Positions 3,004 through 24,518 of a stretch of DNA of 27,639 bases are shown in pieces. Where the stretch lies: positions 1-27,639 of IMG/VR virus record IMGVR_UViG_3300023174_000540, one strand, 5' to 3'. The notes under the pieces were generated by a model. That model was not told where the DNA came from. It did no database searches and saw nothing but the letters and a program-made list of their open reading frames with translations. Origin of the DNA: a virus. Each line of letters opens with the position of its first letter. Position 1 is the first letter of the stretch. A program made the translations under genes and the position numbers.

Positions 3004-4848
3004 TTAGATACTTTGTAACACAATCCAGTCATTATTATAAGACTTGATATCCTTTTCTGTCACAGTAATTGACGGATCAGAAACTGACACTGCTGGCCTT
3101 CCTACATATAAGGAATAGTGGGTGGAAACTATTGCTTGAGTTAGTTCTTTTGAATATATAGCAATGTTGTTATATAGACAAGTTGGGCCGCCTGAACCTG
3201 AGTAATTAAACTTTAATATGCCTGAAGAAGGTTGTGATAAAACTAATACAACATGATATAGTTGATTAGCAGCAAATACATTTGATATATTTGTTTGTGT
3301 TGTTTGATCTACTCCATTTACATAGATTTTTAATATATTGGTCTTTGTTATTGTTCCGTTTCCCGCCCAAGAGTACGCAGAGGCCGTGTATGACCCCGTA
3401 GCTGCCGCATCTAGTAAGGTATTAGCCGTAAGGTCAGACGGAGTAAAAAACATCTCTACGGACTTTATAGAGCCTTGTGTGGTCAAGTTAAATCCAGAAC
3501 CAGGCTTTGTCCTTATTCCATTATCATAGTGTCTAGAAAGAAGTGGATAATTTAATGACCCTAAATAATACTCAGATGAAGATGAAATTAGGTCGCCATA
3601 ATTGTCTGCATATACATCTTTATTTGTATAAAAACTAATTGCAAAATACGCTAATCTTGGTAAATATTTACTAGCATCAGATGTGGACATGGTTATTTTA
3701 ATATAAACAACTCCGTTAGTGCTAAATGAATCTTTTGTATATTGAGGCAAGGGCTGTCCATTTAAACAATTTTGCCAATTTGTTCCGTCTACGCTTGACT
3801 CTACTGTTATGCCTAAATCATTTCTCCATTCCACCTTTGAACTTACAAATGGAATTTGGCTAGGTATTAAAAATGAGTCTTCAAGAATAAATGTTTTTGA
3901 TTGAACTGAATCTGTTTTATAAAAAGAAATATAGCCTGCAGATTCATTATAGTATGTGTTGCTATCAAGAAATTCCGACCATTGTTTATTTACTGGATAC
4001 GAGTATTGAAATTGAGCTCTTATAGAAGCATCTGTGCAAGAAAAAAGAATTCCTTGATCTGGTGAAACAACTTGAATTGCTGGTGCAGAAAAATTTCCAT
4101 CTCCATAGTGTCTTTGTATAGAAGAGGAAGGAAGAGAATATCTATATATGGCTGGAGCATCAACAATAAAAGAATCTGTAGATACAGTTGTTGGCCCTAT
4201 AGCCAAGGCTAATGAGGTATTTGTAAATTTAAAGTTTTCGGCTAATGATCTTGTTGCAACTAGCCTACCATCAACATACAAAGAAATCGAATATACAGAA
4301 TAAATTCCTACTAAATGCATAACTCTTTTAGAGTATGTTACTGGATATCTAACTGATTCGGTTGCAGATACTTTAAAAACTATATCTCCATTTTGCCAGT
4401 ATAGTCCTATGTTGTTTAAGTTATCTGACATAATTGGAGTTTCAGTAGATGAAAATATAGAGGGAGATATCCAGCATTCAATTGTAAAATCATTATCAGA
4501 TGAATACTTATTTCCAATTCCTCCGCTTGAGGTTGATCCATAATAATCTTTATTTGTTGATAACTCTATTTTTCCATTATTTGAAATATTAGTTCCGTAT
4601 TTTCCGCCTGATACTAATGGCAACAAATAATCATTTAAGGGAAACTCTCCATTATAGGTTGCATTATTTCCACATCCTGAATAATCTGAAGCGGTAGAAG
4701 TAGATAAAGAAGAGTTATAATAAGATGGCTCATTATAAAGCGTAGTACTATCATTATAAGTAGAAACAAAATAAAAGCTTGTATAAAGTTCATCTAAAGG
4801 CCAAAATCCTATTGGATGATCTTTAATAACTTTTAGTTGGTATGACAT
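3004..4848 (-). CDS. Minor tail protein/adhesin with two LamG-like (concanavalin A-like) domains
   Basis: 614 aa. It opens with MSYQLKVIKDHPIGFWPLDE, a beginning typical of laminin-G-type jelly rolls. The first lectin-like domain spans about residues 95-250: FTIECWISPS, then ISLYVDGRLVAT and the allied strand SLALAIGPTTV. A middle beta domain (about 280-410) includes a WRNDLGITVESSVDGTNWQNC segment. A second LamG-like domain lies at about 440-600 (KSVEMFFTPSD, LKIYVNGVDQTT, YHVVLVLSQ, LYNNIAIYSKELT). LamG_3 domains bind glycans, so a role in host-surface recognition on the virion is likely. It has an AAGGGG ribosome site and follows the fibre gene at 4858 by nine bases. The site of attachment on the virion is unknown. 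Confidence 0.78.
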   Translation of the reverse strand: MSYQLKVIKDHPIGFWPLDELYTSFYFVSTYNDSTTLYNEPSYYNSSLSTSTASDYSGCGNNATYNGEFPLNDYLLPLVSGGKYGTNISNNGKIELSTNKDYYGSTSSGGIGNKYSSDNDFTIECWISPSIFSSTETPIMSDNLNNIGLYWQNGDIVFKVSATESVRYPVTYSKRVMHLVGIYSVYSISLYVDGRLVATRSLAENFKFTNTSLALAIGPTTVSTDSFIVDAPAIYRYSLPSSSIQRHYGDGNFSAPAIQVVSPDQGILFSCTDASIRAQFQYSYPVNKQWSEFLDSNTYYNESAGYISFYKTDSVQSKTFILEDSFLIPSQIPFVSSKVEWRNDLGITVESSVDGTNWQNCLNGQPLPQYTKDSFSTNGVVYIKITMSTSDASKYLPRLAYFAISFYTNKDVYADNYGDLISSSSEYYLGSLNYPLLSRHYDNGIRTKPGSGFNLTTQGSIKSVEMFFTPSDLTANTLLDAAATGSYTASAYSWAGNGTITKTNILKIYVNGVDQTTQTNISNVFAANQLYHVVLVLSQPSSGILKFNYSGSGGPTCLYNNIAIYSKELTQAIVSTHYSLYVGRPAVSVSDPSITVTEKDIKSYNNDWIVLQSI

Positions 4849-5660: not shown

Positions 5661-6398
5661 CTATGGATTTAGTGTACCATTAAATTCATATGAACCTACA
5701 TGTGTTGTTTTAGCATATGGGGCTGCATAAACTTTATTCCCTAGCTTCCGCCACATATGGCAAAAATTAACATCTTCCCCCATGGCTAATCCTTCTTCGC
5801 TTATATCAGTTTTCCAAAATTCATACACCTTATCTCCAGGGTTTACACCTTGAATTTCAGATCCACTATATTTATAAGACCTGACAGAATCTTTAAGTTT
5901 ATCAAAAACTGATCTTTTTATAATCATCATTCCCGTCCCAATATGTGAGACTTCAAATGACTTAGTAAAATCTTCTGGTTGATCTTGTCCTGGCAATAAT
6001 GCAAGATTAAATTCGCCACTATATTTACTTAAAGATTGTGCTGGTATTCCATGTTGAACTGCTTGAGATATAGAATTCCAATTCATTCTCTTCTTAGGAA
6101 CTACTCCGCCAATAATATCTTTATCTTCTTGAATCATACGCAGAACATCTTCTGGCTTAAATGATTGATCGGCATCAATAAAGAATAAATAATCACACCC
6201 TGAAGCCAAAAACATTTGAGTAAATAAATCTCTTGCTTCGGTTATAATAGAATTATTATACATATCTCTAAACTGAACTTCATAACCATTATCCAATAAA
6301 AACTTCATTGTATTAAATAAACTCTTAGCATATGATCCATGGCACATTCCGCCATACATTGGAGTTGCGATAAATACTGATTTAGATTTTTTGGACAT
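5661..6398 (-). CDS. GT-A type glycosyltransferase (second of pair)
   Basis: 245 aa from ATG 6398 (MSKKSKSVFIATPMYGG). An in-frame ATG at 6452 exists, but 6398 has an AAAGGG ribosome site and gives the same N-terminus as the paralogue at 7889. The nucleotide-sugar fold shows FIATPMYGG at residues 9-17, and a metal-binding DAD (residues 75-77) in YLFFIDADQSF. A C-terminal GEDVNFCHMW...GNKVYAAP...THVG motif is probably part of the acceptor and catalytic site. GT-A enzymes transfer a sugar from an NDP-sugar to a glycan, protein or DNA acceptor; the acceptor here is unknown. The start overlaps the FkbM methyltransferase end by 17 bases, so the three genes form one operon. Confidence 0.8.
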   Translation of the reverse strand: MSKKSKSVFIATPMYGGMCHGSYAKSLFNTMKFLLDNGYEVQFRDMYNNSIITEARDLFTQMFLASGCDYLFFIDADQSFKPEDVLRMIQEDKDIIGGVVPKKRMNWNSISQAVQHGIPAQSLSKYSGEFNLALLPGQDQPEDFTKSFEVSHIGTGMMIIKRSVFDKLKDSVRSYKYSGSEIQGVNPGDKVYEFWKTDISEEGLAMGEDVNFCHMWRKLGNKVYAAPYAKTTHVGSYEFNGTLNP

Positions 6399-7179
6399 AT
6401 TGAGATCCCTTTGTCGCCATTCCTGCATAAAACATTTGTAGCGATATATCAACAGCAGAAGAATACAAAATGTCTTCTGATATATATATTACATTATATT
6501 GATTTTCATATTCAAAATCTCTTGCAATTGGAACAAAATTTCTATCGCATAGGAATTTATTTATTTCTCCAACTAAAGCCTGATTCTCCCAAAATGTCGC
6601 TTGCTCTACTTCAATAAAAATAGCTTTAGTATTCTTTAATGAATCTTCTGCTCCAACAAGAACATTTAACGATGAGCCTTCTACATCTATCCATAATGCG
6701 TTGCTTTGATTTTCCCACTTTTTATTTGCAATAAATGTATCTAACTTTGTGCACTCAACTTTATTTTTTTTGTAAATAGTATCTTCATCATTGATTTTTG
6801 ATAATATTGAGTCGGCACCAATGTTTATTGATCTTGTACCAGACTTAGTACTAATAGCAACATTAATATCAATTTCACCGTTATGATCTGATACGGCCAT
6901 ATTTAAATATTCAATATTAGATATAGCGTCTTTAGCTTGATCAAAATTACGTGGACTTGCTTCAAATGCCACAACATTTTTTACTTGGTCTTTAATGAAC
7001 ATTGAAAACTCTGCGTTTAATGCACCTATTTCAAAAAATGAATCAACTTTGCTATTTGTAATTATATTGGCAAATAGGTTTGCTAGTTCTATAACACTCT
7101 TTTGTCTTGCCTTTTCATCTGGCAAATCATATAGGGCAGACTGCATTACTAAGCTATTTAGAATAAATTCTTTAGACAT
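6382..7179 (-). CDS. FkbM-family SAM-dependent methyltransferase
   Basis: 265 aa. A class I methyltransferase fold is visible: motif I is FFEIGALNAEFS (Glu50, Gly52), the acidic end of strand 2 is AFEASPRNF (Glu73), and the FkbM hallmark is LWIDVEGSSLNVLVGA (Asp165, Glu167). FkbM enzymes usually O-methylate sugars. The position between two paralogous glycosyltransferases, with a one-base TAATG overlap upstream and a 17-base overlap downstream, suggests that it caps or modifies the glycan that they build. The N-terminal 45 residues are helical and precede the Rossmann core. The substrate is not known. Confidence 0.85.
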   Translation of the reverse strand: MSKEFILNSLVMQSALYDLPDEKARQKSVIELANLFANIITNSKVDSFFEIGALNAEFSMFIKDQVKNVVAFEASPRNFDQAKDAISNIEYLNMAVSDHNGEIDINVAISTKSGTRSINIGADSILSKINDEDTIYKKNKVECTKLDTFIANKKWENQSNALWIDVEGSSLNVLVGAEDSLKNTKAIFIEVEQATFWENQALVGEINKFLCDRNFVPIARDFEYENQYNVIYISEDILYSSAVDISLQMFYAGMATKGSQYVQKI

Positions 7180-7889
7180 TATATCCTCTGCTTAAATTTG
7201 TTTGTTGTAGACATTTGTCTAATATGCTCCCATGTAATTGGTTGCTTCTTCATATGGGTAACTAATACTCTAGGGTCAAAGTATAATTCTATTCCCGCCC
7301 TATATGCTTTAATACACCATGATATATCTTCACCAACTGCATCAATCATATCTGTTCCATCTGGATTTTCTCCAACTTTAACATATTCATGATTAAACCA
7401 AGGTCTTTGAATCTTTTCAAATACACCTGACTTCATTGCAACAAAACCAAATCCAAGGCTTTGAACTCTAAGCGGATCTTTTAAATTAACTATCTCTGTT
7501 GCTGGCATTCCTCCTGGGGCACCCCAAGCATGCACAGTTGTTGTAAAGCCATCTGCTAATAAATATGCGCCAGAGGCAACATCATACTCTGAATCATATA
7601 TTTTAAAAAACTGTTCTGGTGTCCAAGAGATGTCTGAATCAATCCAAAATATTTTATTATAAGTAATATCGCTACCTCCTGGAGAAGTTTGGGAGGGATC
7701 TAAATTTAATCCTTCTACTCCAGAAGCTGTTAATTCTCTAGCATGGTGTACAAGTGAAGAATAGTTATTTAACCACTTATAAGTAATGCCACGCTTATCA
7801 CATTCTGCTAAAGTTTGAACTAAACTTTTTACATATTGTGATTCTAACATTCCGCCTGGTGTTGCAATTAACACATCATAATGTTGCAT
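7179..7889 (-). CDS. GT-A type glycosyltransferase (first of pair)
   Basis: 236 aa. VLIATPGGM opens the nucleotide-binding fold, and IFWIDSDISW carries the DxD metal motif (Asp84, Asp86). The C-terminal GEDISWCIKAY...GIELYFDP...VTHMKK matches the GED-xxxC-G-Y-P-TH pattern of the gene at 5661, so the two are paralogues with about the same length. It is the first gene of the operon, starting 21 bases after a strong consensus promoter's -10 box. The ATG is preceded by AAAGG, a modest ribosome site. It probably acts in the host cytoplasm. Whether the glycan ends up on fibres, capsid, phage DNA or the host surface cannot be told from the sequence. Confidence 0.8.
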   Translation of the reverse strand: MQHYDVLIATPGGMLESQYVKSLVQTLAECDKRGITYKWLNNYSSLVHHARELTASGVEGLNLDPSQTSPGGSDITYNKIFWIDSDISWTPEQFFKIYDSEYDVASGAYLLADGFTTTVHAWGAPGGMPATEIVNLKDPLRVQSLGFGFVAMKSGVFEKIQRPWFNHEYVKVGENPDGTDMIDAVGEDISWCIKAYRAGIELYFDPRVLVTHMKKQPITWEHIRQMSTTNKFKQRI

Positions 7890-8340: not shown

Positions 8341-8604
8341 TTATTCTGTTACTGAAAGCACTTCTGGCATTACTTCCATAATTCCAATAGAATTTAGATA
8401 ATCTGATGTTGGTTCTGTAAAAGTATTTGAGGTTTTATCATAGGTACTCCAACGAGCAGGGATTGTTTTGTCGTCAAGCCAAATAAACTTATCAAAGTTT
8501 TTTTCAATACAAATTCTAGTTGCAAAATCGTCATCTTGTTCTACAAACACATAGGTATCTTCTACTCGATTATTTACAAGGAATGTATAATGTTTTTCAG
8601 CCAT
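8341..8604 (-). CDS. Small hypothetical protein following the glycine-rich adhesin
   Basis: 87 aa from ATG 8604 (MAEKHYTFLVNNRVEDTYVF). A longer reading from 8616 overlaps the previous gene; ATG 8604 sits at a TAATAATG junction with GGAG before it, so I chose it. The protein is acidic with beta-rich character (VEQDDDFATRICIEKNFDKFIWLDDKTIPARW). It immediately follows the glycine-rich adhesin gene and may help to fold or attach it, as gp38-type accessory proteins do, but no homology is apparent. Confidence 0.6.
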   Translation of the reverse strand: MAEKHYTFLVNNRVEDTYVFVEQDDDFATRICIEKNFDKFIWLDDKTIPARWSTYDKTSNTFTEPTSDYLNSIGIMEVMPEVLSVTE

Positions 8605-8606
8605 TA

Positions 8607-9428
8607 TTAACTCCAATACGTAATTCTTGCATAGCCTGAACCGCCTGCCGCACCAGCAACAGAACTGTTTACTGCTAATGGTGCGCCACCGCCACCGCCT
8701 GAATTTGTAGCGCCTGCTGTAGCAGCGCTTGCACCACCACTACTTCCGCCACCGCTTGCACCTCTTAAAGTTGTGTAATAAAGGCTTCCTGCGCCACCGC
8801 CACCAAAACCGTCTATACCTGCTCCTGGAATTGAAAAACCAACGCTTCCAGAAGCAGGCGCTCCTGCTCCGCCTTGGCTTCCAGCACCATTACTGCTTGA
8901 TGCAAGACCAGATGTATTACCAGTTGATACAAATGCTATGTATTGAGCGCTTTGTCCTGCGCCACCACCAGCACCGCCACCGCCAGCAGGTTGTTGGCCA
9001 CCGCCTACGTTGTAACCGCCACCGCCACCACTTCCGCCGTTTCCAGCAGCAGGCAAAGTCCCAGTTGGACCACCGCCACCACCGCCACCACCAAAAGCAG
9101 TCGCAAGCGCACCAAACGTAGTATCTCCACCATTGCCGCCATTTGTACCACCGCTACCGCCAGCAGTTCCGCCAGCGCCAATAGTTACCGTGTATGAAGT
9201 ATTAGGAACAACTGTGATTGTTTTTTTTACGACACCACCGCCACCGCCGCCACCGCCGCCTGCTAATCCTGAAGGTTGAGAACAACCACCGCTACCACCA
9301 CCACCACCAACAAGAAATAAATCAACTGTTGTTACGTTTGCAGGAGTAACAAAAGTGGTTGTGCTTAAATACTCAATAACTTTTTGAGTTACGCTGCTAG
9401 AAACGGCAGGATATATACTTGTTGGCAT
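8607..9428 (-). CDS. Glycine-rich tail adhesin
   Basis: 273 aa. The N-terminal ~40 residues (TQKVIEYLSTTTFVTPANVTTVDLFLVGGGG) match the entry to glycine-rich phage domains. From about residue 36 the protein is dominated by runs such as GGGGGGGGG and GGGGGGYNVGGGQQPAGGGG up to the C-terminus, which ends in the strand GSGYARITYWS. This is the pattern of the Gly_rich_2 type, and resembles the polyglycine-II helix bundle of the T-even adhesin gp38. Such domains form receptor-binding tips with variable loops between the glycine runs. It starts at a TAATG junction with the beta-domain gene at 9428-9760, whose GGAG in the final Glu-Ile-Ser codons is its ribosome site. It is the distal gene of the cassette array. 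Confidence 0.82.
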   Translation of the reverse strand: MPTSIYPAVSSSVTQKVIEYLSTTTFVTPANVTTVDLFLVGGGGGSGGCSQPSGLAGGGGGGGGGVVKKTITVVPNTSYTVTIGAGGTAGGSGGTNGGNGGDTTFGALATAFGGGGGGGGPTGTLPAAGNGGSGGGGGYNVGGGQQPAGGGGAGGGAGQSAQYIAFVSTGNTSGLASSSNGAGSQGGAGAPASGSVGFSIPGAGIDGFGGGGAGSLYYTTLRGASGGGSSGGASAATAGATNSGGGGGAPLAVNSSVAGAAGGSGYARITYWS

Positions 9429-9760
9429 TATGAAATCTCCGATCCAAATGTTGTAAATGTTGAAGTACCATTAGTGGAAGATACTCTAATTCCATTTGGA
9501 TTTGTTAGGGCAAACCCGCTTTTTAAGGTTATAGTCGTATTTCCAGCTATGGTATTATTATACACTATATAATTTAAATTTGCCGCAGGTATTGCAGCAG
9601 TTGGCACAAGAGCAATACTAAATGTATCTACAGATGTTGATGTATTTGTAATATTAATTGATTTAATTATTGTAGATGTGAGGGAAGGAACAGAATAATG
9701 CAGAGTTTCAGTATTTGCAATAGGTGCTGTTTGTCCTAATACTTTATAACTAGTAGGCAT
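9428..9760 (-). CDS. Type A beta-domain protein without propeller (unit 3)
   Basis: 110 aa. It consists of one compact beta domain: MPTSYKVLGQTAPIANTETL, then SINITNTSTSVDTFSIALVP, a short linker (TAAIPAANL), and NYIVYNNTIAGNTTITLKSG to the C-terminal TFGSEIS. It is closely related to 11010-11342 and to both ends of 12544-13713, in which seven propeller repeats sit where this protein has the linker. It therefore shows the uninserted form. Stop and start are coupled to the neighbours by TAATG overlaps. The function is inferred to be a virion decoration or fibre-base protein. Confidence 0.7.
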   Translation of the reverse strand: MPTSYKVLGQTAPIANTETLHYSVPSLTSTIIKSINITNTSTSVDTFSIALVPTAAIPAANLNYIVYNNTIAGNTTITLKSGFALTNPNGIRVSSTNGTSTFTTFGSEIS

Positions 9761-11010
9761 TATGAAATCTCCAATCCATATGTAGAAAATGTTAAATTAG
9801 AATTTCCTCTTACAACTATAGAATTTTGCGGAGCTAATGTAATTCCTGGCTCAAGTACTTGAAAAGAATTAGCTGCTATTGTAACATTTTTGTAAAGGTT
9901 GTTTAATGAGGAAGAAGAATATAATGTTGTAAGTGGTCCTCCATAAACAACATCTAGCCAAGTTTGAAATGCTGGTAAAGTTCTTAAAGTCCAACTAATT
10001 CCGTTTGTTGAGGTTGCAGATGTTGAGCTTGCAGAATATGGACCAGAGACTGCAACAAAAGTTCCATTGCCCTGTGTTACTGAATACCAATTTGCAGTTG
10101 CTGGCAAAGTTACTGCCGTCCAAGTTGTTCCGTCTGTGGATCTAGCAGCAGCATTTGTTACTCCGATAGCACTAGTAGTTAATGAAACTGACAAAAAAAT
10201 TCCAGCTCCAAAAGTTGTAGCAACCCAATTTTCATTAGAAGGCATAGTTACTGTTGTCCAAGTTATTCCGTCGGTTGATATTGCTGCTAAAGTACGAAGT
10301 TCTGCTGTTGCTACAAATACTCCATTACCAAAAGCCATTGATTTCCAAGAAGCAACTGTAGGGAGAGTTCTTGTTGTCCAGGTTATCCCGTCAGTTGAGG
10401 AAGCAGCTTGTGTTGTACCACCTGAACTATTATATGAAACTGTTGCAAAAACTCCATTACCAAATGCATTTGTCCAAAATCTACCTAAAGATCCAGGTAT
10501 CGAGGTTGTAGACCAAGATACTCCATTTGTTGAATAATGTACGGTATGACCTATGGCATTACCAGTTAATATATATTTTCCATTTCCATATGAAATTGTG
10601 TTTGTACTTCCAGACGCACTTCCAAGAGTACTCAGTGTCCATGTTATTCCATCGGTTGATAAACCTATTGATGTAGTAGATGCAGTAGTTGATACAAATA
10701 AAGAATTACCATAAACTATTCCTTTTCCTCCTGTTCCGCCTAAAGTAGTTACTGCAGTCCATGTGATGCCATTTGATGAAGTATACACCTGTGTATCTAA
10801 AGATTGTAAAACAAAAGTGGGAGTAGCGATATTTGATGTATTTACTATTGAATTATAAATATTTATATCAAAAGTTTGAACAGAAGCTGATCTATTTACT
10901 ACAGTAATATTACTGATTAAACTTTGAGTATTGGCGGGGGATACATAAAGCACATTCTCTGTAGTATCACTTGGAGAAACTTGTCCTAATATTTTATATA
11001 ACTCAGGCAT
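9760..11010 (-). CDS. Type B beta-domain protein with inserted seven-repeat propeller (unit 3)
   Basis: 416 aa from ATG 11010; an earlier ATG at 11046 would overlap the upstream gene, whereas 11010 fits the TAATG junction used by all its paralogues. Residues 1-62 are the first half of the beta domain (MPELYKILGQVSPSDTTENV). Residues 63-368 hold seven repeats. Residues 369-416 complete the domain (LNNLYKNVTIAANSFQVLEP, ending YGLEIS). Each repeat runs FV-x(10-20)-S-T-D-G-I-T-W-T-x-(R/T)-T-L-P-x(5-8)-W-x(5)-F-G-N, a shortened Asp-box (BNR) signature. Seven copies predict one complete beta-propeller presented from the small domain. Sialidase catalytic residues are not evident, so binding seems more likely than catalysis. 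Ribosome site GGAG lies in the previous gene's last codons. Confidence 0.75.
   Translation of the reverse strand: MPELYKILGQVSPSDTTENVLYVSPANTQSLISNITVVNRSASVQTFDINIYNSIVNTSNIATPTFVLQSLDTQVYTSSNGITWTAVTTLGGTGGKGIVYGNSLFVSTTASTTSIGLSTDGITWTLSTLGSASGSTNTISYGNGKYILTGNAIGHTVHYSTNGVSWSTTSIPGSLGRFWTNAFGNGVFATVSYNSSGGTTQAASSTDGITWTTRTLPTVASWKSMAFGNGVFVATAELRTLAAISTDGITWTTVTMPSNENWVATTFGAGIFLSVSLTTSAIGVTNAAARSTDGTTWTAVTLPATANWYSVTQGNGTFVAVSGPYSASSTSATSTNGISWTLRTLPAFQTWLDVVYGGPLTTLYSSSSLNNLYKNVTIAANSFQVLEPGITLAPQNSIVVRGNSNLTFSTYGLEIS
9907..10824 (-). repeat. Seven Asp-box-like repeats (propeller, gene 9760-11010)
   Basis: Seven in-frame units of about 40-46 codons. Each contains S-(T/S)-(D/N)-G-(I/V/T)-(T/S)-W. 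These copies are more diverged from each other than those of the gene at 12544-13713. Confidence 0.8.
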
Positions 11011-11342
11011 TATGATATCTCCGTTCCAAATGTTGTAAATGTGCATGTTCCATTAGTTGATAAAACTCTAACCCCGCTTGGATAATTTAAAGTATATGGA
11101 TTTTTAATAGTTACAGTGGAATTTCCAGGTATGGAACTATTATACGCTATATAGTTTGAAGTTGTTGCAGCAGTTGCAGCAATTGGCACAATAGCAATAC
11201 TAAATGTATCAGCAACTGCTGATGTATTAGTAATATTAATTGATTTAATTACTGCAGAAGTAGCGGAAGGAACAGAATAATGCAATGTCTCAGTATTCGC
11301 AATAGGATCTGTTTGTCCTAATATTTTATAATTAGTTGGCAT
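11010..11342 (-). CDS. Type A beta-domain protein without propeller (unit 2)
   Basis: 110 aa, the second uninserted type A copy: MPTNYKILGQTDPIANTETL at the start, SVADTFSIAIVP, then the linker IAATAATTS, NYIAYNSSIPGNSTVTIKNP and the C-terminal TFTTFGTEIS. Its first 55 residues are nearly the same as those of 12544-13713 up to the insertion point, which makes it a direct 'empty-site' partner of that gene. It is coupled by TAATG to both neighbours. A role as virion appendage or fibre-base subunit is inferred from the context only. Confidence 0.7.
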   Translation of the reverse strand: MPTNYKILGQTDPIANTETLHYSVPSATSAVIKSINITNTSAVADTFSIAIVPIAATAATTSNYIAYNSSIPGNSTVTIKNPYTLNYPSGVRVLSTNGTCTFTTFGTEIS

Positions 11343-12544
11343 TAAGAGATCTCCATTCCATATGCTGAAAATGTTAAATTGGAATTACCTTTAATACTTA
11401 TAGAATTTTGTGCTCCCAAAGCAATTCCTGGTTCTAAAATTTCAGATGAGTTTGCAGCAATTGTAACATTTTTATATAAGTTGTTTAATTTAGGAGAAGG
11501 GAAACTCCCATATTGAATTTGATAAGCATTTGATGGTAATGTTGATGTTGTCCAAGTTATTAAATCAGTTGAATAGGCAATTGATGAGAGATTGCCTGGC
11601 GATGCATAAAAATTTCCATTGGCATAAGTTGCTCCACTCCAAAAAGCAGAGGATGGCATTGTACGTAATGTCCAAGTTATGCCGTCAGTTGAGGAGGCAG
11701 CGGTGGTATTAGCAGAATTTCCAGCTCCAAAAGCAAGCCAGGTATTAGATAAGTAAAAAACATAACTCCATTCAGAAACTGCTGGCATTGTGCGTGTTGT
11801 CCAAGTTATTCCATCTGTTGATGAAGCTGCTAATGTTGCAGCAAATCCTCCACCTCCAGTTGCAAAAAATTTATCAGCACCATAGGCAGCTGTCTGCCAT
11901 CCATGAGTTGCATTAGGCATAGTTGTTATTGTCCAAGTTAATCCGTTTGTTGAATATAATGCTGTACCTGAATTATAAGCAATCAAAATAAATTTACCAT
12001 TTCCAAATGTTGCTCCTCTCCACTGGTTAAAAGATGGCAAAGTTACTGCTGTCCAAGTTGTTCCATCATCTGTTGATCGTAATGAGCTAGAGCTACTTGC
12101 TCCTAAAACATATGTATTATTGCCATAAGCAATTGAATTCCATGATGTGCTTGCGAGTGGAGTTGTTGTTTGAGTCCACGTAATTCCATTTGTTGATGTT
12201 GCTGCTACAGTTTCAAAATTTGATACAGATAAAAATTTAGAATTTGCAAAAAATAAATTATTCCACCGAGCAGTTGAGGGAAATGTGCCTGTTGTCCAAT
12301 TTACGGCATTAGTTGAAGACATGACTGTATTATGAGCAGGAAAAGGCGATTTAATAGCAACAAAATTATTTAAAATTGGAATATTATTATAAACACTAAT
12401 ATCAAATGTTTGAGCGGAAGCAGATCTATTGGTAACAGTAATATTAGTTACTAATGTTTGAGTATTAACAGGAGATGTATATAAAACATTTTCTAATGTA
12501 TCTGTAGGTACTAATTGTGATAATATCTTATAAGATTCAGGCAT
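11342..12544 (-). CDS. Type B beta-domain protein with inserted seven-repeat propeller (unit 2)
   Basis: 400 aa. Residues 1-59 (MPESYKILSQLVPTDTLENV, ending FDISVYNNIPILN) and 353-400 (LNNLYKNVTIAANSSEILEP, ending YGMEIS) are the two halves of the type B domain. Residues 60-352 carry seven repeats. The third repeat contains STDDGTTW, a full-length canonical Asp-box (S-x-D-x-G-x-T-W), which supports the link of the shorter SxDGxTW form in the other repeats to the BNR/sialidase-type propeller. The start is at a TAATG junction (GGAGATATCATAATG). The protein is rich in Ser, Thr, Asn and Ala with few charged residues, as in phage fibres. Host-surface binding is inferred. Confidence 0.75.
   Translation of the reverse strand: MPESYKILSQLVPTDTLENVLYTSPVNTQTLVTNITVTNRSASAQTFDISVYNNIPILNNFVAIKSPFPAHNTVMSSTNAVNWTTGTFPSTARWNNLFFANSKFLSVSNFETVAATSTNGITWTQTTTPLASTSWNSIAYGNNTYVLGASSSSSLRSTDDGTTWTAVTLPSFNQWRGATFGNGKFILIAYNSGTALYSTNGLTWTITTMPNATHGWQTAAYGADKFFATGGGGFAATLAASSTDGITWTTRTMPAVSEWSYVFYLSNTWLAFGAGNSANTTAASSTDGITWTLRTMPSSAFWSGATYANGNFYASPGNLSSIAYSTDLITWTTSTLPSNAYQIQYGSFPSPKLNNLYKNVTIAANSSEILEPGIALGAQNSISIKGNSNLTFSAYGMEIS
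11489..12367 (-). repeat. Seven Asp-box-like repeats (propeller, gene 11342-12544)
   Basis: Seven in-frame units of 39-46 codons. The fifth and sixth units share the longest near-identical stretch (AASSTDGITWT). Confidence 0.8.
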
Positions 12545-13713
12545 TATGATATCTCCGTCCCAAATGTGTTAAATGTGCATGTTCCGTTTGTTGAAGTTAC
12601 TTTAATACCGTTTGGGTTTGTTAATATATACCCAGATTTAAGTGTCATGGTTGAATTTCCAGATATAGCATTATTATACATTACGTAATTACTTATAGTT
12701 GATGGAGTACTTCCAAAAGCTACTGAATACCAATTTCTACTTGCTGGCAATGTACGTTCTGTCCAAGTTATGCCATCGGTTGATGAGGCGGCAGTGGTTG
12801 AATTATATGCTATTGCAACAAATGTATTATTTCCAAAAGATGCCCCTCTCCAATTAGCAGATGCTGGCAACGTCCTCTGTGTCCAGGTTATGCCATTGGT
12901 TGAGGAGGCAGCTGAGGATGAAAGATTTGCTACTGCAACAAATGTATTATTTCCAAAAGATGATCCATACCAATTGTTATACATTGGCATGGTAAATAAA
13001 GTCCATGTTATTCCATCTGTTGAGTAGGTTGCAGTTGTTCCAAGTGATAGTGCAACAAATAACCCATTTCCATAAACAAAAGTATTCCAGGAGGATGTTG
13101 GCATAGTGCTTGAAGTCCACGTTATTCCATCGGTTGAAGAGGCGGTGTCGGATGCAGATTGTGATACTGCAACAAATTTATTATTTCCAAATGCTATTTT
13201 AACCCAATTAGAACTTATTGGTACTGTACGTAAAGTCCAGGTTATCCCGTTGGTTGAGGAGGCGGCTGCTGTTCCACCTGTAATTGCAACAAATGTACTA
13301 TTTCCAAAAGATGCATATCGCCAACCATTAGTACTAGCGCTAGGTAATGTACGCAATGTCCAAGTTACGCCATCAGTTGAAGAGGCAGCGTTGGTTGAGT
13401 TATTTGCTACTGCAACAAATATGTTATTACCAAATTCTGCGGCAAACCAATTATCATTTGCTGGTAATGTGCGTAATGTCCAAGTTATGCCGTCGGTTGA
13501 GGAGGCGGCGGAGGATGAATTATATGCTATTGCAACAAATGTATTTACAAGCTGTGGAATCATTCCAATACTAAATGTATCAGCAACAGAAGATGTATTT
13601 GTAATATTAATTGCTTTTATAATAGTAGATGTAGCGGACGGCACAGAATAATGCAATGTTTCAGTATTTGCATTTGGTGCAGTTTGCGCTAAAAATTTAT
13701 AATTAGTTGGCAT
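12544..13713 (-). CDS. Type A beta-domain protein with inserted seven-repeat propeller (unit 1)
   Basis: 389 aa. Residues 1-56 (MPTNYKFLAQTAPNANTETL, ending TFSIGMIPQLV) and 336-389 (NYVMYNNAISGNSTMTLKSG, ending FNTFGTEIS) match the complete 110-aa type A proteins at 9428 and 11010. Residues 57-335 are seven repeats of 40, 42, 39, 39, 39, 40 and 40 residues, adding a predicted seven-bladed propeller. Repeats 1, 6 and 7 are the most alike (NTFVA(I/V)A at the front and AASST(D/N)GITWT in the middle). The high DNA identity between repeats suggests recent expansion or gene conversion. It is the only type A gene in the array that carries a propeller. The start is TAATG-coupled to the gene at 13713. 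Confidence 0.77.
   Translation of the reverse strand: MPTNYKFLAQTAPNANTETLHYSVPSATSTIIKAINITNTSSVADTFSIGMIPQLVNTFVAIAYNSSSAASSTDGITWTLRTLPANDNWFAAEFGNNIFVAVANNSTNAASSTDGVTWTLRTLPSASTNGWRYASFGNSTFVAITGGTAAASSTNGITWTLRTVPISSNWVKIAFGNNKFVAVSQSASDTASSTDGITWTSSTMPTSSWNTFVYGNGLFVALSLGTTATYSTDGITWTLFTMPMYNNWYGSSFGNNTFVAVANLSSSAASSTNGITWTQRTLPASANWRGASFGNNTFVAIAYNSTTAASSTDGITWTERTLPASRNWYSVAFGSTPSTISNYVMYNNAISGNSTMTLKSGYILTNPNGIKVTSTNGTCTFNTFGTEIS
12709..13545 (-). repeat. Seven near-identical Asp-box-like repeats (propeller, gene 12544-13713)
   Basis: Seven units of 117-126 bases. A DNA motif close to GTCCAAGTTATGCC(A/G)TC followed by GGTTGA(G/A)GAGGC (as read on the plus strand) recurs in most units. 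This is the most homogeneous of the propeller arrays. Confidence 0.85.
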
Positions 13714-14906
13714 TATGATATCTCCACACCATAAGCTGAATATGTTATAAGATTGCCAGATACAACAATAGAATTTTGAGGATTTAATATAATTCCTGGT
13801 TCTAGAATTTGAGATGAGTTTCCTGCAACTGTTGCCTGTTTATATAAATTATTTAATGCTGGAGATACTAAATTACCACAAATAATATTACCCCAAGTAA
13901 TGTTTCCTGGTATCGTGCTTATATCCCAAGTTATGCCATCAGTTGATACTGCAGCATTAGTTGTTGACCCAACTGCAACAAATTTATTATTTCCAAATGC
14001 TACTGAAGACCATTGACTACTTGTTGGCATAGTATTTAAAGTCCAGGTATTTCCATTTCCAGAATATGCAGCTGTAGTAGTAGTTCCCGATGAAGGTGTT
14101 GCAATAGAAACCCATGTGCTATTTCCAAAAGCTAATGCACCCCATTCAGCAACCGCTGGCATTGTACGTAGTGTCCATGTTATTGCATCAAGCGATGTGG
14201 CAGCAGTAGTTGTTGCAACACCTAGTCCAGCAATAGCAACAAATTTATTTCCACCATAAAGAGTTTTATCCCATGTAGCAGTTGAATTTGGTAAAGTTGT
14301 TATTGTCCAAGTTATAGCATCAGTAGAATATACTGCTGTAGATTTATTGTAAACAACAGTAACAAAAACTCCTAAGCCAAAAGATAACCCTCTCCATTGT
14401 TCTGAGCTTGGTAAAGTTGTTTGTATCCAAGTTATTCCATCTGTTGAATATGCTCCTACATTTGAAATATTCCTAACAGAAACAAATTTACTATTTCCAT
14501 AAGCTAGTGAGAGCCATGAACCAGAACTGGGCAAAGTTCTTAAGTTCCATGTTATTCCATCACTTGATGTTGCTGCTGATGTTGAACCAGATGCTACTGC
14601 AACAAATGTATTATTTCCAAATGCTATTTGATACCAAGCAACGCTTGCTGGCATTGTACGTAGTGTCCATGTTATTCCATCGGTTGAAGAAGCAGCAGTG
14701 GTACCAGTATATCCAACTGCAACAAACGCATTAGGTTGAATAACAGCATTATTATAAAGACTAATATCAAAAGTTTGAGCATCAGATGATCTATTAGCAA
14801 CAACAATATTATTAACTATTGTTTGAGTATTTGCTGGAGATGTATAAAGAACTACTTCATTAGCACCAGGGGCTACTTGACCCAATATCTTATATGCTTC
14901 AGGCAT
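13713..14906 (-). CDS. Type B beta-domain protein with inserted seven-repeat propeller (unit 1)
   Basis: 397 aa and the first gene of the array. Residues 1-58 (MPEAYKILGQVAPGANEVVL, ending ISLYNNAVIQP) and 346-397 (ending ITYSAYGVEIS) form the type B domain. Residues 59-345 contain seven repeats of 40, 40, 40, 41, 43, 44 and 39 residues, consistent with a seven-bladed propeller. Repeats 4 and 5 read STDAITW and SLDAITW, replacing the Gly of the Asp-box. Unlike the other five members it is not TAATG-coupled upstream: it has its own AGAGAAGAG ribosome site after a 27-base gap, as expected for the head of the array. Confidence 0.77.
   Translation of the reverse strand: MPEAYKILGQVAPGANEVVLYTSPANTQTIVNNIVVANRSSDAQTFDISLYNNAVIQPNAFVAVGYTGTTAASSTDGITWTLRTMPASVAWYQIAFGNNTFVAVASGSTSAATSSDGITWNLRTLPSSGSWLSLAYGNSKFVSVRNISNVGAYSTDGITWIQTTLPSSEQWRGLSFGLGVFVTVVYNKSTAVYSTDAITWTITTLPNSTATWDKTLYGGNKFVAIAGLGVATTTAATSLDAITWTLRTMPAVAEWGALAFGNSTWVSIATPSSGTTTTAAYSGNGNTWTLNTMPTSSQWSSVAFGNNKFVAVGSTTNAAVSTDGITWDISTIPGNITWGNIICGNLVSPALNNLYKQATVAGNSSQILEPGIILNPQNSIVVSGNLITYSAYGVEIS
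13872..14732 (-). repeat. Seven Asp-box-like repeats (propeller, gene 13713-14906)
   Basis: Seven in-frame units of 39-44 codons with the FV-x-S-T-D-G-I-T-W-T...W...FGN pattern. Confidence 0.82.
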
Positions 14907-14933: not shown

Positions 14934-15323
14934 TTAAATCATCGCAAAAAATACATTTAATGTAGGAGGGGCAACCCATGTAATGCCTGTTCCTGTAGAA
15001 CTTAATAAATATCCACTAATTCCTACTGAACCGCCAGCCCTTAAAGTGCTATTTGCAGTTAATGCACCATTTGCAGTTAATGCACCATTTGCAGTTAATG
15101 CACTATTTGCAGTTATTGCACCATTTGCAGTTATTGCACCTGATGTATTTATTGAACCTAATGTGGATATTGAACCATTTGTAGTTAATGTACCATTAAT
15201 TTGAACATTGCTACTAAATAGAGAATCTCCTAAAACACCTAGTCTATTATCAATTGCAACTGATGGGAAAAATACTGTACCACCAGTGTTAATATAATTA
15301 GACTGCTCTCTTGTAAGAGGCAT
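14934..15323 (-). CDS. Small fibre protein with ten 6-residue repeats
   Basis: 129 aa. After a 44-residue N-terminal region (MPLTREQSNYINTGGTVFFP) come ten hexads at residues 45-104, such as TLTTNG, AITANG, ALTANG and ALTANS, with Leu/Ile at the second position of nearly every unit. This regular spacing predicts a slender beta-helical or trimeric fibre shaft. The C-terminus (GTGITWVAPPTLNVFFAMI) is hydrophobic. A strong AGGAGG ribosome site starts right at the stop of the upstream 1192-aa gene. It probably adds to the fibre formed by its neighbours. Confidence 0.68.
   Translation of the reverse strand: MPLTREQSNYINTGGTVFFPSVAIDNRLGVLGDSLFSSNVQINGTLTTNGSISTLGSINTSGAITANGAITANSALTANGALTANGALTANSTLRAGGSVGISGYLLSSTGTGITWVAPPTLNVFFAMI
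15012..15191 (-). repeat. Ten 18-base repeats encoding hexapeptides
   Basis: An 18-base period with near-identical copies at 15048-15137 (GCATTAACTGCAAATGGT-like). It is in frame, so a change in copy number alters shaft length without a frameshift. Confidence 0.85.
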
Positions 15324-19406: not shown

Positions 19407-20717
19407 TTATACTGTAGTTGCTGGGCCAGCGTACAAAGCAAATGATGTAGGAGTAAAAGAAGTAGCTGATCTTGTGGTAAGGGTAGTGCCCGAATGCCCA
19501 ATTAGAGTATTTGAAATTATAGCTCTAGGAACTCCACCTGATATTGAACCATTAGACCCCAGGTTAAACCAATTAGTGCCATCAGTTGAATATCCATGAT
19601 TTGTGTTAGATGCCATAAAATAATAAGTAACTCCATTAATTGATCCAGATAAAGTCTTTCCTTGTAAATAGTCCCAGGTCAAGCCTGTGCCAGCATAACT
19701 TTGAAAGCTACCAGAACTATTAGTCCATGTTACTCCATCGGTACTTCTTTCTGGACCACCAGTAAAAGCATTTTGAGAATAAAAAAATCCGTCGGGAGCA
19801 TAAACAGTAAAACCAAATTGTGTGCTATTTACTCTATTACCTTCAGTAAATGCTGTTCCATTTGTAGAATATGCTACAGTTGTACTTACTGAAGAACCAA
19901 CACTAAGACCTCTTGACGCAAGAAATCTTGTTGGGCTTGCTGCTAAGTTACCCCATGCTCCTAGCTGCAACAATGTGCCAGCAGTCCAAGTAAACCCATC
20001 GGTTGAATAATATGTTTGGCCAGCGCTGTAGTCGGAAAGGCTTCCAGAAGTAATCACGCAATATCTACCAATAGTAGATGCATAAACAATATTTCCTTGA
20101 CTAACTGCTGCTGGAAATGTTCTTAGTGTCCAGGTTATTCCGTCTGGGGATGTATAAAAGCTTGTTGTTGGAGATCCAGCACTTGCCTGAAATGCAAAAA
20201 ATAAATCATTTGTTCCTTGAATAGTCCATGTTGTTGAAAACGTAGATGTTCTTGAAGTCCAAGTAGAACCATCTGTTGAGGTATAATAAGTTGTTCCTGT
20301 ACCGCCCATATGAACCCAAACTCCAGCAGTATATGCGGTAGTCTGCTGCCCTGAAGGCTTGAAATAAGAATTTGTTGCTGCTGTTAAAGCGGTTAAGCCA
20401 GTTGTAGATGCGTTTACATAATAGTTTCCAATTTGAGATGCTAGATTAAAAGTAACGCTAGATGCTCCAGCGGGCAATGTGCATACTTTTGGAGTATTTG
20501 CCACTAAAGCAAATGATTGCCCATCACTAAATGAAACAGATCCAGCTCTTCCAGCAAGAGCAATATGATCTCCAGCTGGTATAGAAACTGTTTTTGATGC
20601 AGTAGTATTTGGAACAGTAGTAATCATACCTTCAAAAATTGTAGATGATGTTCCTGGAACTGCAGGAGGAATAAGCACAGATGCTGCCACTGGCGCAGGA
20701 AACGTATTAATACCCAT
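19407..20717 (-). CDS. Beta-domain plus seven-repeat propeller protein (diverged)
   Basis: 436 aa. Residues 1-131 form a different N-terminal part (MGINTFPAPVAASVLIPPAV, with a PAGDHIALAGRAGSVSFSDG strand segment). From residue 132 come about seven diverged repeats: STDGSTWTSRT, SPDGITWTLRT, STDGFTWTAGT, STNGTAFTEG, STDGVTWTNSS, STDGTNWFNLG and a degenerate last unit. This is the same Asp-box-like propeller as in the 9.7-14.9-kb array, but it stands at the C-terminus and is not inserted within a domain. Start is TAATG-coupled to the EIS-ending gene at 20717, so it repeats the small-domain plus propeller pairing. A host-binding role is inferred. Confidence 0.7.
   Translation of the reverse strand: MGINTFPAPVAASVLIPPAVPGTSSTIFEGMITTVPNTTASKTVSIPAGDHIALAGRAGSVSFSDGQSFALVANTPKVCTLPAGASSVTFNLASQIGNYYVNASTTGLTALTAATNSYFKPSGQQTTAYTAGVWVHMGGTGTTYYTSTDGSTWTSRTSTFSTTWTIQGTNDLFFAFQASAGSPTTSFYTSPDGITWTLRTFPAAVSQGNIVYASTIGRYCVITSGSLSDYSAGQTYYSTDGFTWTAGTLLQLGAWGNLAASPTRFLASRGLSVGSSVSTTVAYSTNGTAFTEGNRVNSTQFGFTVYAPDGFFYSQNAFTGGPERSTDGVTWTNSSGSFQSYAGTGLTWDYLQGKTLSGSINGVTYYFMASNTNHGYSTDGTNWFNLGSNGSISGGVPRAIISNTLIGHSGTTLTTRSATSFTPTSFALYAGPATTV
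19410..20324 (-). repeat. About seven diverged Asp-box-like repeats (gene 19407-20717)
   Basis: Six clear STDGxTW-like motifs and one degenerate unit are visible. The spacing (39-49 residues) is less regular than in the main array. The ends are approximate. Confidence 0.6.
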
Positions 20718-23698: not shown

Positions 23699-24193
23699 TT
23701 ATGCCCCTATTGCAGTTCTTAAAAATCTTACTGAAATGGGTTTTTTTGTGCCGATTGGTGAAACCTTTAAATAAATTATACCATTAGTTTTGTCCGCAGT
23801 TATGTCTGCTAAAGGGGTATCTGTATATACATCTCCGTATCTACTTAATAATAGATCATTTTGATCAGATGTTAAATTTGCTTCCAAGGAGTGAGTCTCA
23901 CCTGCAAAAGATATTTGAATTGTATATTTAAGAGTTTTCCATACATTTATATCTGCAGTATCAATAGTGGTTAAAGTATCTATTCCAGTAAGATTGCCTT
24001 TAAGCTGATCTGATAATTGTGTTAAAGGAACCCAGTTTCTGCCGCCTTGTGTAGATGAAGTTAATACATAATCTGAGCCAGCAGGAACCCCTAAATCTGG
24101 TTCTGTTTCTGGTAAACTAATATAATTATATCTATCTGGATTTACCTCAGTTGGGGGAGTTTTTTTAACTTTACCTGATTTAAGTTCAGCCAT
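23699..24193 (-). CDS. Virion-associated hypothetical protein
   Basis: 164 aa. A Pro-rich front (MAELKSGKVKKTPPTEVNPD, then YNYISLPETEPDLGVPAGSD) leads to a beta-rich domain (YTIQISFAGETHSLEANLTS; IIYLKVSPIGTKKPISVRFL). The start overlaps the stop of the 110-aa gene at 24186 by eight bases, and CTGGAG is its ribosome site. It lies within the fibre block. I see no firm family match; a structural role on the baseplate or fibre is inferred from position and the beta-rich make-up. Confidence 0.6.
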   Translation of the reverse strand: MAELKSGKVKKTPPTEVNPDRYNYISLPETEPDLGVPAGSDYVLTSSTQGGRNWVPLTQLSDQLKGNLTGIDTLTTIDTADINVWKTLKYTIQISFAGETHSLEANLTSDQNDLLLSRYGDVYTDTPLADITADKTNGIIYLKVSPIGTKKPISVRFLRTAIGA

Positions 24194-24518
24194 TTAAAGT
24201 CTCCAGAATGCTCAATACTACTTTTACTGAGCTATTAGTACTTGCTAAAGCTTTTACTGCACTCCCAGATTCTAAAACAAGCTTTCCCGTAGTAGCAGAA
24301 ACTGCATCATTTGCGGGAATAGAAAAATCTTTTAATAATTCAGTAGTAGTAGATCCTTTAAAATGTGAAAAAGTTATTGTTTTAGTAGAAGCACTTGTAT
24401 TGCTTACTTGAGCCATTAAAATAATAGAAGTGTATCCTGTAGGAGCAGTGTATAGGGTTGTAGAAGTTGTTGTTAATTCTGCTGTAACTGTTTTAAATAT
24501 ATTAAGTGTTTCTGCCAT
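24186..24518 (-). CDS. Small beta-sandwich protein, distant relative of the cassette domain
   Basis: 110 aa: MAETLNIFKTVTAELTTTST, then TLYTAPTGYTSIILMAQVSN and TSASTKTITFSHFKG, then PANDAVSATTGKLVLESGSA. The order of elements (T-x-LY-x-(A/V)P near residue 25, xVSNTSAS-x-TxTF, then a glycine turn) is like the 110-aa type A proteins and the gene at 20717, without the EIS ending and without a propeller. It may be an ancestral, uninserted member of that family. It has an AAAAGGAGA ribosome site. The role is probably structural. Confidence 0.6.
   Translation of the reverse strand: MAETLNIFKTVTAELTTTSTTLYTAPTGYTSIILMAQVSNTSASTKTITFSHFKGSTTTELLKDFSIPANDAVSATTGKLVLESGSAVKALASTNSSVKVVLSILETLNG

Follow-up and report, generated by a model that had tools for sequence, protein, structure and literature searches.

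Six tandem genes with and without an inserted repeat array

The IMG/VR virus fragment IMGVR_UViG_3300023174_000540, which we analysed over its full 27,639 bases (the window; classed as linear), carries six tandem genes at positions 9428-14906 on the minus strand, the strand of all window genes discussed here. The six genes share a host domain of about 110 amino acids (aa), which we call the platform: four of them (B1 to B4) hold an array of seven repeats in the same platform loop, and two (A1 and A2) are empty. In order of transcription the genes are B4 (13713-14906; 397 aa, array at about 13869-14732), B3 (12544-13713; 389 aa, N-terminal half of the platform at about 13552-13713, array at about 12703-13548, C-terminal half at about 12547-12690), B2 (11342-12544; 400 aa, array at about 11501-12370), A2 (11010-11342; 110 aa, linker at about 11157-11183), B1 (9760-11010; 416 aa, array at about 9937-10821, C-terminal half at about 9763-9906), and A1 (9428-9760; 110 aa, N-terminal half at about 9602-9760, a 9-aa linker at about 9575-9601, C-terminal half at about 9431-9574). 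An earlier reading of this DNA from its letters alone (the original prediction) had named these six paralogues, and all are present as open reading frames (ORFs) whose neighbours overlap by TAATG. At all six gene ends (9428, 9760, 11010, 11342, 12544, and 13713) the sequence GGAGAT lies within the codons of a conserved C-terminal G-x-E-I-S, placed as a ribosome-binding site would be for the following gene, whose start lies inside the TAATG overlap.

The six genes do not form a single alignable family, a treatment that we rejected because two platform subtypes exist. Type A comprises A1, A2, and B3 (69-75% identical to A1) and type B comprises B1, B2, and B4; the C-terminal halves are on average 60% identical inside a type and 31% identical between types. 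By platform type, the cluster is thus three B-then-A pairs: (B4,B3), (B2,A2), and (B1,A1). B3 is therefore the one filled gene that corresponds like for like to the empty A1 and A2, and the direct comparison of empty and filled versions proposed in the original prediction holds for B3 but not for B1, B2, or B4.

The platform fold appears to be the same in both states. The AlphaFold2 model of A2 (predicted local distance difference test score, pLDDT, 90.4) is a nine-strand jelly-roll-like sandwich, with strands at residues 6-10, 19-23, 29-39, and 45-52, then 64-71, 76-79, 83-86, 90-95, and 100-109. Each host strand in the B3 model (pLDDT 92.7) has its equivalent in A2, the first four unshifted and the remainder at a constant offset of +279, which supports, at the level of predicted structure, retention of the fold with and without the insert and the earlier suggestion that the N- and C-terminal halves make up one domain. 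By profile, the host domain matches positions of about 1-111 of phrog_1276, for which no function is recorded, with E-values from 3e-5 to 4.5e-14; this is only the first third of a profile of length 325, and 9 of 10 empty platform members match it. Compared with solved structures in the PDB, A2 has weak matches to small viral jelly-roll-like proteins (template modelling score, TM, about 0.3-0.6); compared with predicted structures in BFVD, it reaches a TM of up to 0.92 to phage proteins, including cyanophage proteins, some of them named as virion structural or tail-fibre-like.

The insert as a predicted seven-blade Asp-box propeller

A hidden Markov model (HMM) of the repeat, or blade, gives seven hits in each of B1, B2, B3, and B4 and none in A1 or A2, in agreement with the repeat count first given for the four filled genes, and this seven-fold repetition is far beyond chance. 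Some of the Asp-boxes among the blades are degenerate or variant (SLDAITW, SGNGNTW, STDLITW, and STDDGTTW, the last being the one canonical Asp-box of B2), and B3 has seven short Asp-boxes. Across 154 ORFs with blades, the modal count is seven or eight, an eight arising when one of the seven blades is split; double arrays give 13-14.

Each blade runs through strands A (W..VAFG), B (FVAVA), C (AASSTDG), and D (ITWTLRT). In our reading of the B3 model, the insert at residues 55-337 contains 28 strands arranged as seven four-stranded blades (merged strands being counted by blade), with pLDDT mostly above 93 across the propeller. Foldseek matches B3 to Ycf48 (15-19% identity) and to the seven-blade virginiamycin B lyase Vgb, with TM of 0.69-0.75 by target length; kelch domains, of which those matched have six blades, mostly score below Vgb (TM about 0.5-0.64). 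The closure of the repeats into a seven-blade propeller, which had been proposed from the repeat count, is thus upheld by the monomer prediction, both in its strands and in its fold matches to complete seven-blade propellers. The repeated S-x-D motif, in full or short form, is that by which the Asp-box is defined (PMC2716378), and it falls in the turn between strands 3 and 4 of the blade, where the Asp-box sits in known propellers (PMC2716378). On these models we assign the insert to the closed Asp-box beta-propellers with four-stranded blades, which resemble it in blade number and architecture, in the position of the motif, and in having a conserved bottom and a variable top face (PMC2716378). 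The difference lies in the form of the box: short boxes (S-x-D-x-x-x-W) number 972 against 45 canonical ones in the 154 ORFs, in a search biased towards the short form, whereas in the described Asp-box (BNR/Ycf48-type) proteins short boxes are usually found in one or two blades (PMC2716378). Among curated models, no Pfam BNR or Ycf48-type model and no NCBIfam model matched; EPTP alone scored above its cut-off (in B3), and DUF6242 scored below. Sequence searches against solved structures were uninformative.

Empty and filled states among relatives

The same platform position can be empty in one genome and filled in another. A syntenic relative (L001), which shares 96.4% identity with the window along 2.9 kb immediately downstream of the cluster, has a filled counterpart of A1 (L001:2005-3201, 398 aa) and a filled counterpart of A2 (L001:3-827, a gene cut by the contig end). 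The reverse state, in which B is empty and A is filled, is found on two other contigs, L224 (L028) and L293, and both B and A are filled in L205, L207, L215, L222, and L025. In L215, two propellers lie within one platform; this gene is one of five consecutive propeller genes with differing N-terminal parts (L215:3338-9969).

To sample the platform family blind to the insert, we used the platform N-terminal half alone as query; the best 80 matches included 78 complete genes. Of these, 71 encode 108-112 aa and seven encode 391-428 aa (three of the seven being near-copies), with none between. Propeller insertion is therefore all or none, and the idea that a propeller is gained or lost as a single block is supported by the empty and filled counterparts in the window and L001, by the reversed state of L224 and L293, and by the lack of intermediate lengths. 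The wider platform family is overwhelmingly empty (98 empty members were counted); annotated phage genomes yielded no filled platform, and their propeller matches were all distant.

Separate histories of platform and propeller

A platform tree (102 columns, with modest support) requires seven changes between filled and empty, at least three of which are forced by well-supported branches. The empty A1 is sister to its filled counterpart in L001 (support 98/92) inside a clade of 11 rows, nine of them filled, and one empty B gene is nested among filled B genes. Since DNA alignment across the insertion failed in the repeats for most pairs, the two halves were compared separately. Against its filled orthologue (L001:2005-3201), A1 is 93.9% identical in nucleotide sequence in the C-terminal half and 76.7% in the N-terminal half, and its N-terminal half is 86.2% identical to that of A2 in the same genome. 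One half of A1 is thus close to the orthologue and the other closer to A2, and the history of the gene therefore changes at the insertion point.

The propellers show no corresponding relationship to their platforms. B1 and its orthologue (L001:827-2005) are 90% identical in the C-terminal half and 34% identical in the propeller; the identities of C-terminal half and propeller are uncorrelated (Spearman 0.07, p 0.51); propellers from platforms of the same type are 41.8% identical and those from different types 41.9%; and in the propeller tree the two platform types do not separate. These comparisons fit unlinked histories of host halves and propellers, through replacement or extremely fast turnover. 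We also considered and rejected positional orthology of blades: between propellers, blades of the same number are 45.1% identical and blades of different number 44.7%, against 48.3% within a propeller. Ongoing blade amplification is known for propellers (PMC9218822), and the lack of positional orthology is consistent with it.

On the direction of change, gain or loss, these sequences point both ways: in this clade empty genes nest among filled ones, yet the wider family is empty and the linkers of A1 and A2 are ordinary. A deletion scar was sought in these two linkers and none is claimed; the linker of A1 is similar to a short segment of the L001 propeller, but likewise to the linkers of ordinary empty members.

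Junction geometry and use of the propeller in other proteins

In the window, strand B is the first strand of each array and strand A the last, and therefore one blade is closed by both ends of the insert, which meet at the A-B turn. With its ends meeting at this turn, a propeller could take the place of a short platform loop. In many proteins, the array is mostly cut at one of two turns, A-B or Asp-box (the latter cut is used in L138 and L142); both turns belong to the conserved bottom face, and the variable top face thereby stays unobstructed. Mean entropy is 0.92 bits at the A-B turn and 0.68 bits at the Asp-box turn, as against 3.04 bits in the B-C loop and 2.96 bits in the D-A loop, and inserted residues are located in or beside these two loops. 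In Asp-box propellers, the face bearing loops 1-2 and 3-4 is conserved, and the variable face alone is functional in known structures (PMC2716378).

The propeller is a widely used cassette, and the platform is usually empty. Beyond the loop used in the cluster, propellers occur in the loop between platform strands 1 and 2 (L019, L138, and L142), at platform termini (L033 and L034), and in many unrelated large virion-like proteins, so that one domain recurs with differing partners, as in phage domain mosaicism. Similar propellers were found in many bacterial genomes by a scan of genome contigs. Several propellers apparently lie in one chain in L134:1241-7402 (33 blade hits), L151:2399-5971 (23), and L163:1340-4843 (20). 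In two annotated phages, the propeller bears on existing gene names: in Synechococcus phage B23 (L441:9001-9795), a plus-strand propeller frame occupies a region in which the record annotates two minus-strand genes, a possible misannotation, and in Actinomycetia phage DSL-LC01 (L443:4989-5861), a propeller located among genes for collagen-like fibres carries the annotation photosynthesis system II assembly factor, a label probably transferred from Ycf48-like folds.

Probable setting in the virion

The window runs from portal and prohead protease genes through sugar-transfer genes and the six-gene cluster to tail-fibre-like genes. A platform gene is flanked by two tail-fibre genes in cyanophage P-SSM2 and adjoins one in B23; Mtd_N proteins are encoded directly upstream of platform genes in L028 and L019, and L205 has an Mtd_N/propeller protein. 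Single members of the platform alignment match tail-fibre PHROGs. The tail-appendage setting claimed in the original prediction is thus probable, judged by gene neighbourhood and by the predicted-fold matches given above. As to a diversity-generating retroelement that might target such genes, as with Mtd, no reverse transcriptase was found among the window ORFs scanned, the window being a fragment in which template repeats were not searched for.

A proposed swappable head on a fibre-associated platform

We read the cluster as encoding an adhesin whose head, a short-Asp-box propeller, can be swapped on a fibre-associated virion platform (phrog_1276-like, about 110 aa), and give this reading a probability of about 0.68. 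The platform would act as a docking base into which a whole seven-blade propeller is spliced as one block between strands 4 and 5. A join on the conserved side of the propeller would turn the variable top face outward, where the propeller head may bind a receptor, presumably a ligand on the host-cell surface. Heads might be exchanged by recombination at the platform halves together with blade turnover inside the arrays, and swapping, gaining, or dropping a head could alter adsorption range. Within or close to the tail fibres, the B and A platforms of a pair are probably neighbours in the assembled particle, each independently filled or empty. A more ambitious form of this reading, which we offer tentatively and would not yet bet on, is a dedicated docking system: the loops of tandem B/A pairs would either take up a single standard cassette, a closed propeller, or go without it. 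The cassette would also circulate among many other virion proteins, with the conserved face almost always forming the junction, and any variable face would therefore suit any platform. If true, phage adhesins would have a general plug-in format.

Several observations weigh against the swappable adhesin. Propellers generally keep tight turns and vary long loops, and face polarity alone is thus no proof of binding. The propeller identities (about 42%) lie close to the minimum that the blade consensus imposes; very fast divergence, and not replacement, could thus account for their uncoupling from the platforms. The linkers of A1 and A2 resemble those of ordinary empty members, and propeller loss at both positions is thus not evident. 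Finally, the PDB matches of A2 include capsid cement, turret, and protrusion proteins, which would suit a capsid location.

The low propeller identities, the ancestral-like linkers, and the emptiness of the wider family would all be expected under ordinary divergence without swapping, in which each filled gene inherited its own propeller, fast-changing blades erased orthology, and the empty genes are ancestral and were never filled. We regard this as unlikely given the well-supported pairing of A1 with a filled orthologue in a mostly filled clade, the switch point at its insertion site, and the empty B gene inside filled B genes. Slightly less probable again is that these proteins decorate the capsid and are not tail adhesins, the sandwich being of the cement, turret, or protrusion type and the propeller an optional surface ornament that would attach loosely to particles, mucus, or host glycans. 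The solved structures nearest to A2 in fold do include the KHP40 trimeric cement, an Omono River virus protrusion, the HFTV1 turret, and a pentameric capsid protein of a metagenomic phage, and two large window neighbours match PHROGs of virion structural proteins classed as "head and packaging"; the Mtd_N or tail-fibre genes adjacent in relatives and cyanophages, the tail-fibre-like proteins among the predicted-structure matches, and the tail-fibre PHROG matches of single platform members speak for the fibre instead. That collapse or chimerism at repeats created both empty genes during assembly is very improbable: although this is a metagenomic contig with 28 related repeats and an exact repeat between B4 and B3, that repeat, the longest in the cluster region, is only 31 nt, the empty genes have intact frames, linkers of family-normal length, and no partial blade, and the reciprocal pattern appears on other contigs (L224 and L293).

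The swappable adhesin can be set beside two known systems. Phage receptor-binding propellers are described in phi11 Gp45 (five blades), PRD1 P2 (five, distorted), and PhiKZ gp131C (seven) (PMC4901313), in which a peripheral phage protein likewise carries a propeller, with a proposed orientation towards the receptor; the available part of that article describes no optional empty form and no empty/filled orthologue pair, and here the propeller is a loop insert of a separate small domain. The recombining domains of tail fibres and spikes in phage receptor-binding-protein mosaicism (Smug et al. 2023, PMC10684548) are similar, but here the unit of exchange is nested inside another domain, is all or none, and occurs in both states in one genome. 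The word "propeller" is absent from the main text of that paper, and a search covering part of the literature found no described propeller insertion in phage fibres. The insertion system is a new form of phage domain mosaicism, which is itself already known. It provides natural before-and-after pairs for the insertion of a whole domain into a virion protein, so that the gain or swap of a binding head by a phage without breaking the structural part becomes testable. A joining rule that brings both ends of a closed propeller together at a single turn on its conserved face would account for the presence of the cassette in two loops and many proteins, and would aid annotation of many unnamed phage proteins that carry it.

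Other platform and propeller genes and the surroundings of the cluster

The original prediction's inventory of host domains was right for the six cluster genes and incomplete for the window, which contains two more empty paralogues and a further propeller gene. The first empty paralogue, C1 (20717-21022, minus strand, 101 aa), matches phrog_1276 (E-value 1e-5) and the host HMM; the second, D1 (24186-24518, minus strand, 110 aa), matches phrog_1276 at 4.5e-14, and its relatives in cyanophages P-SSM2 and B23 adjoin tail-fibre genes. Next to C1, E1 (19407-20717, minus strand) encodes a separate propeller protein with an unrelated N-terminal region of about 130 aa and six blade hits at residues 134-383.

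Another variable site lies beside the cluster. After A1, a glycine-rich gene (window 8341-9428) is represented by a 273-aa gene and a 91-aa gene, and its version in L001 (L001:3201-3905) encodes 165 aa; the DNA flanking it is 96% identical between the window and L001. Upstream of B4, a 129-aa gene contains 18-nt tandem repeats at window positions 15049-15195, which encode TANGAL-like hexapeptide repeats. Also beside the fibre cluster, at window positions 3004-4848 and 5661-7889, are a gene for a large concanavalin-like (Laminin_G_3) protein and genes for a glycosyltransferase 2 and an FkbM methyltransferase.

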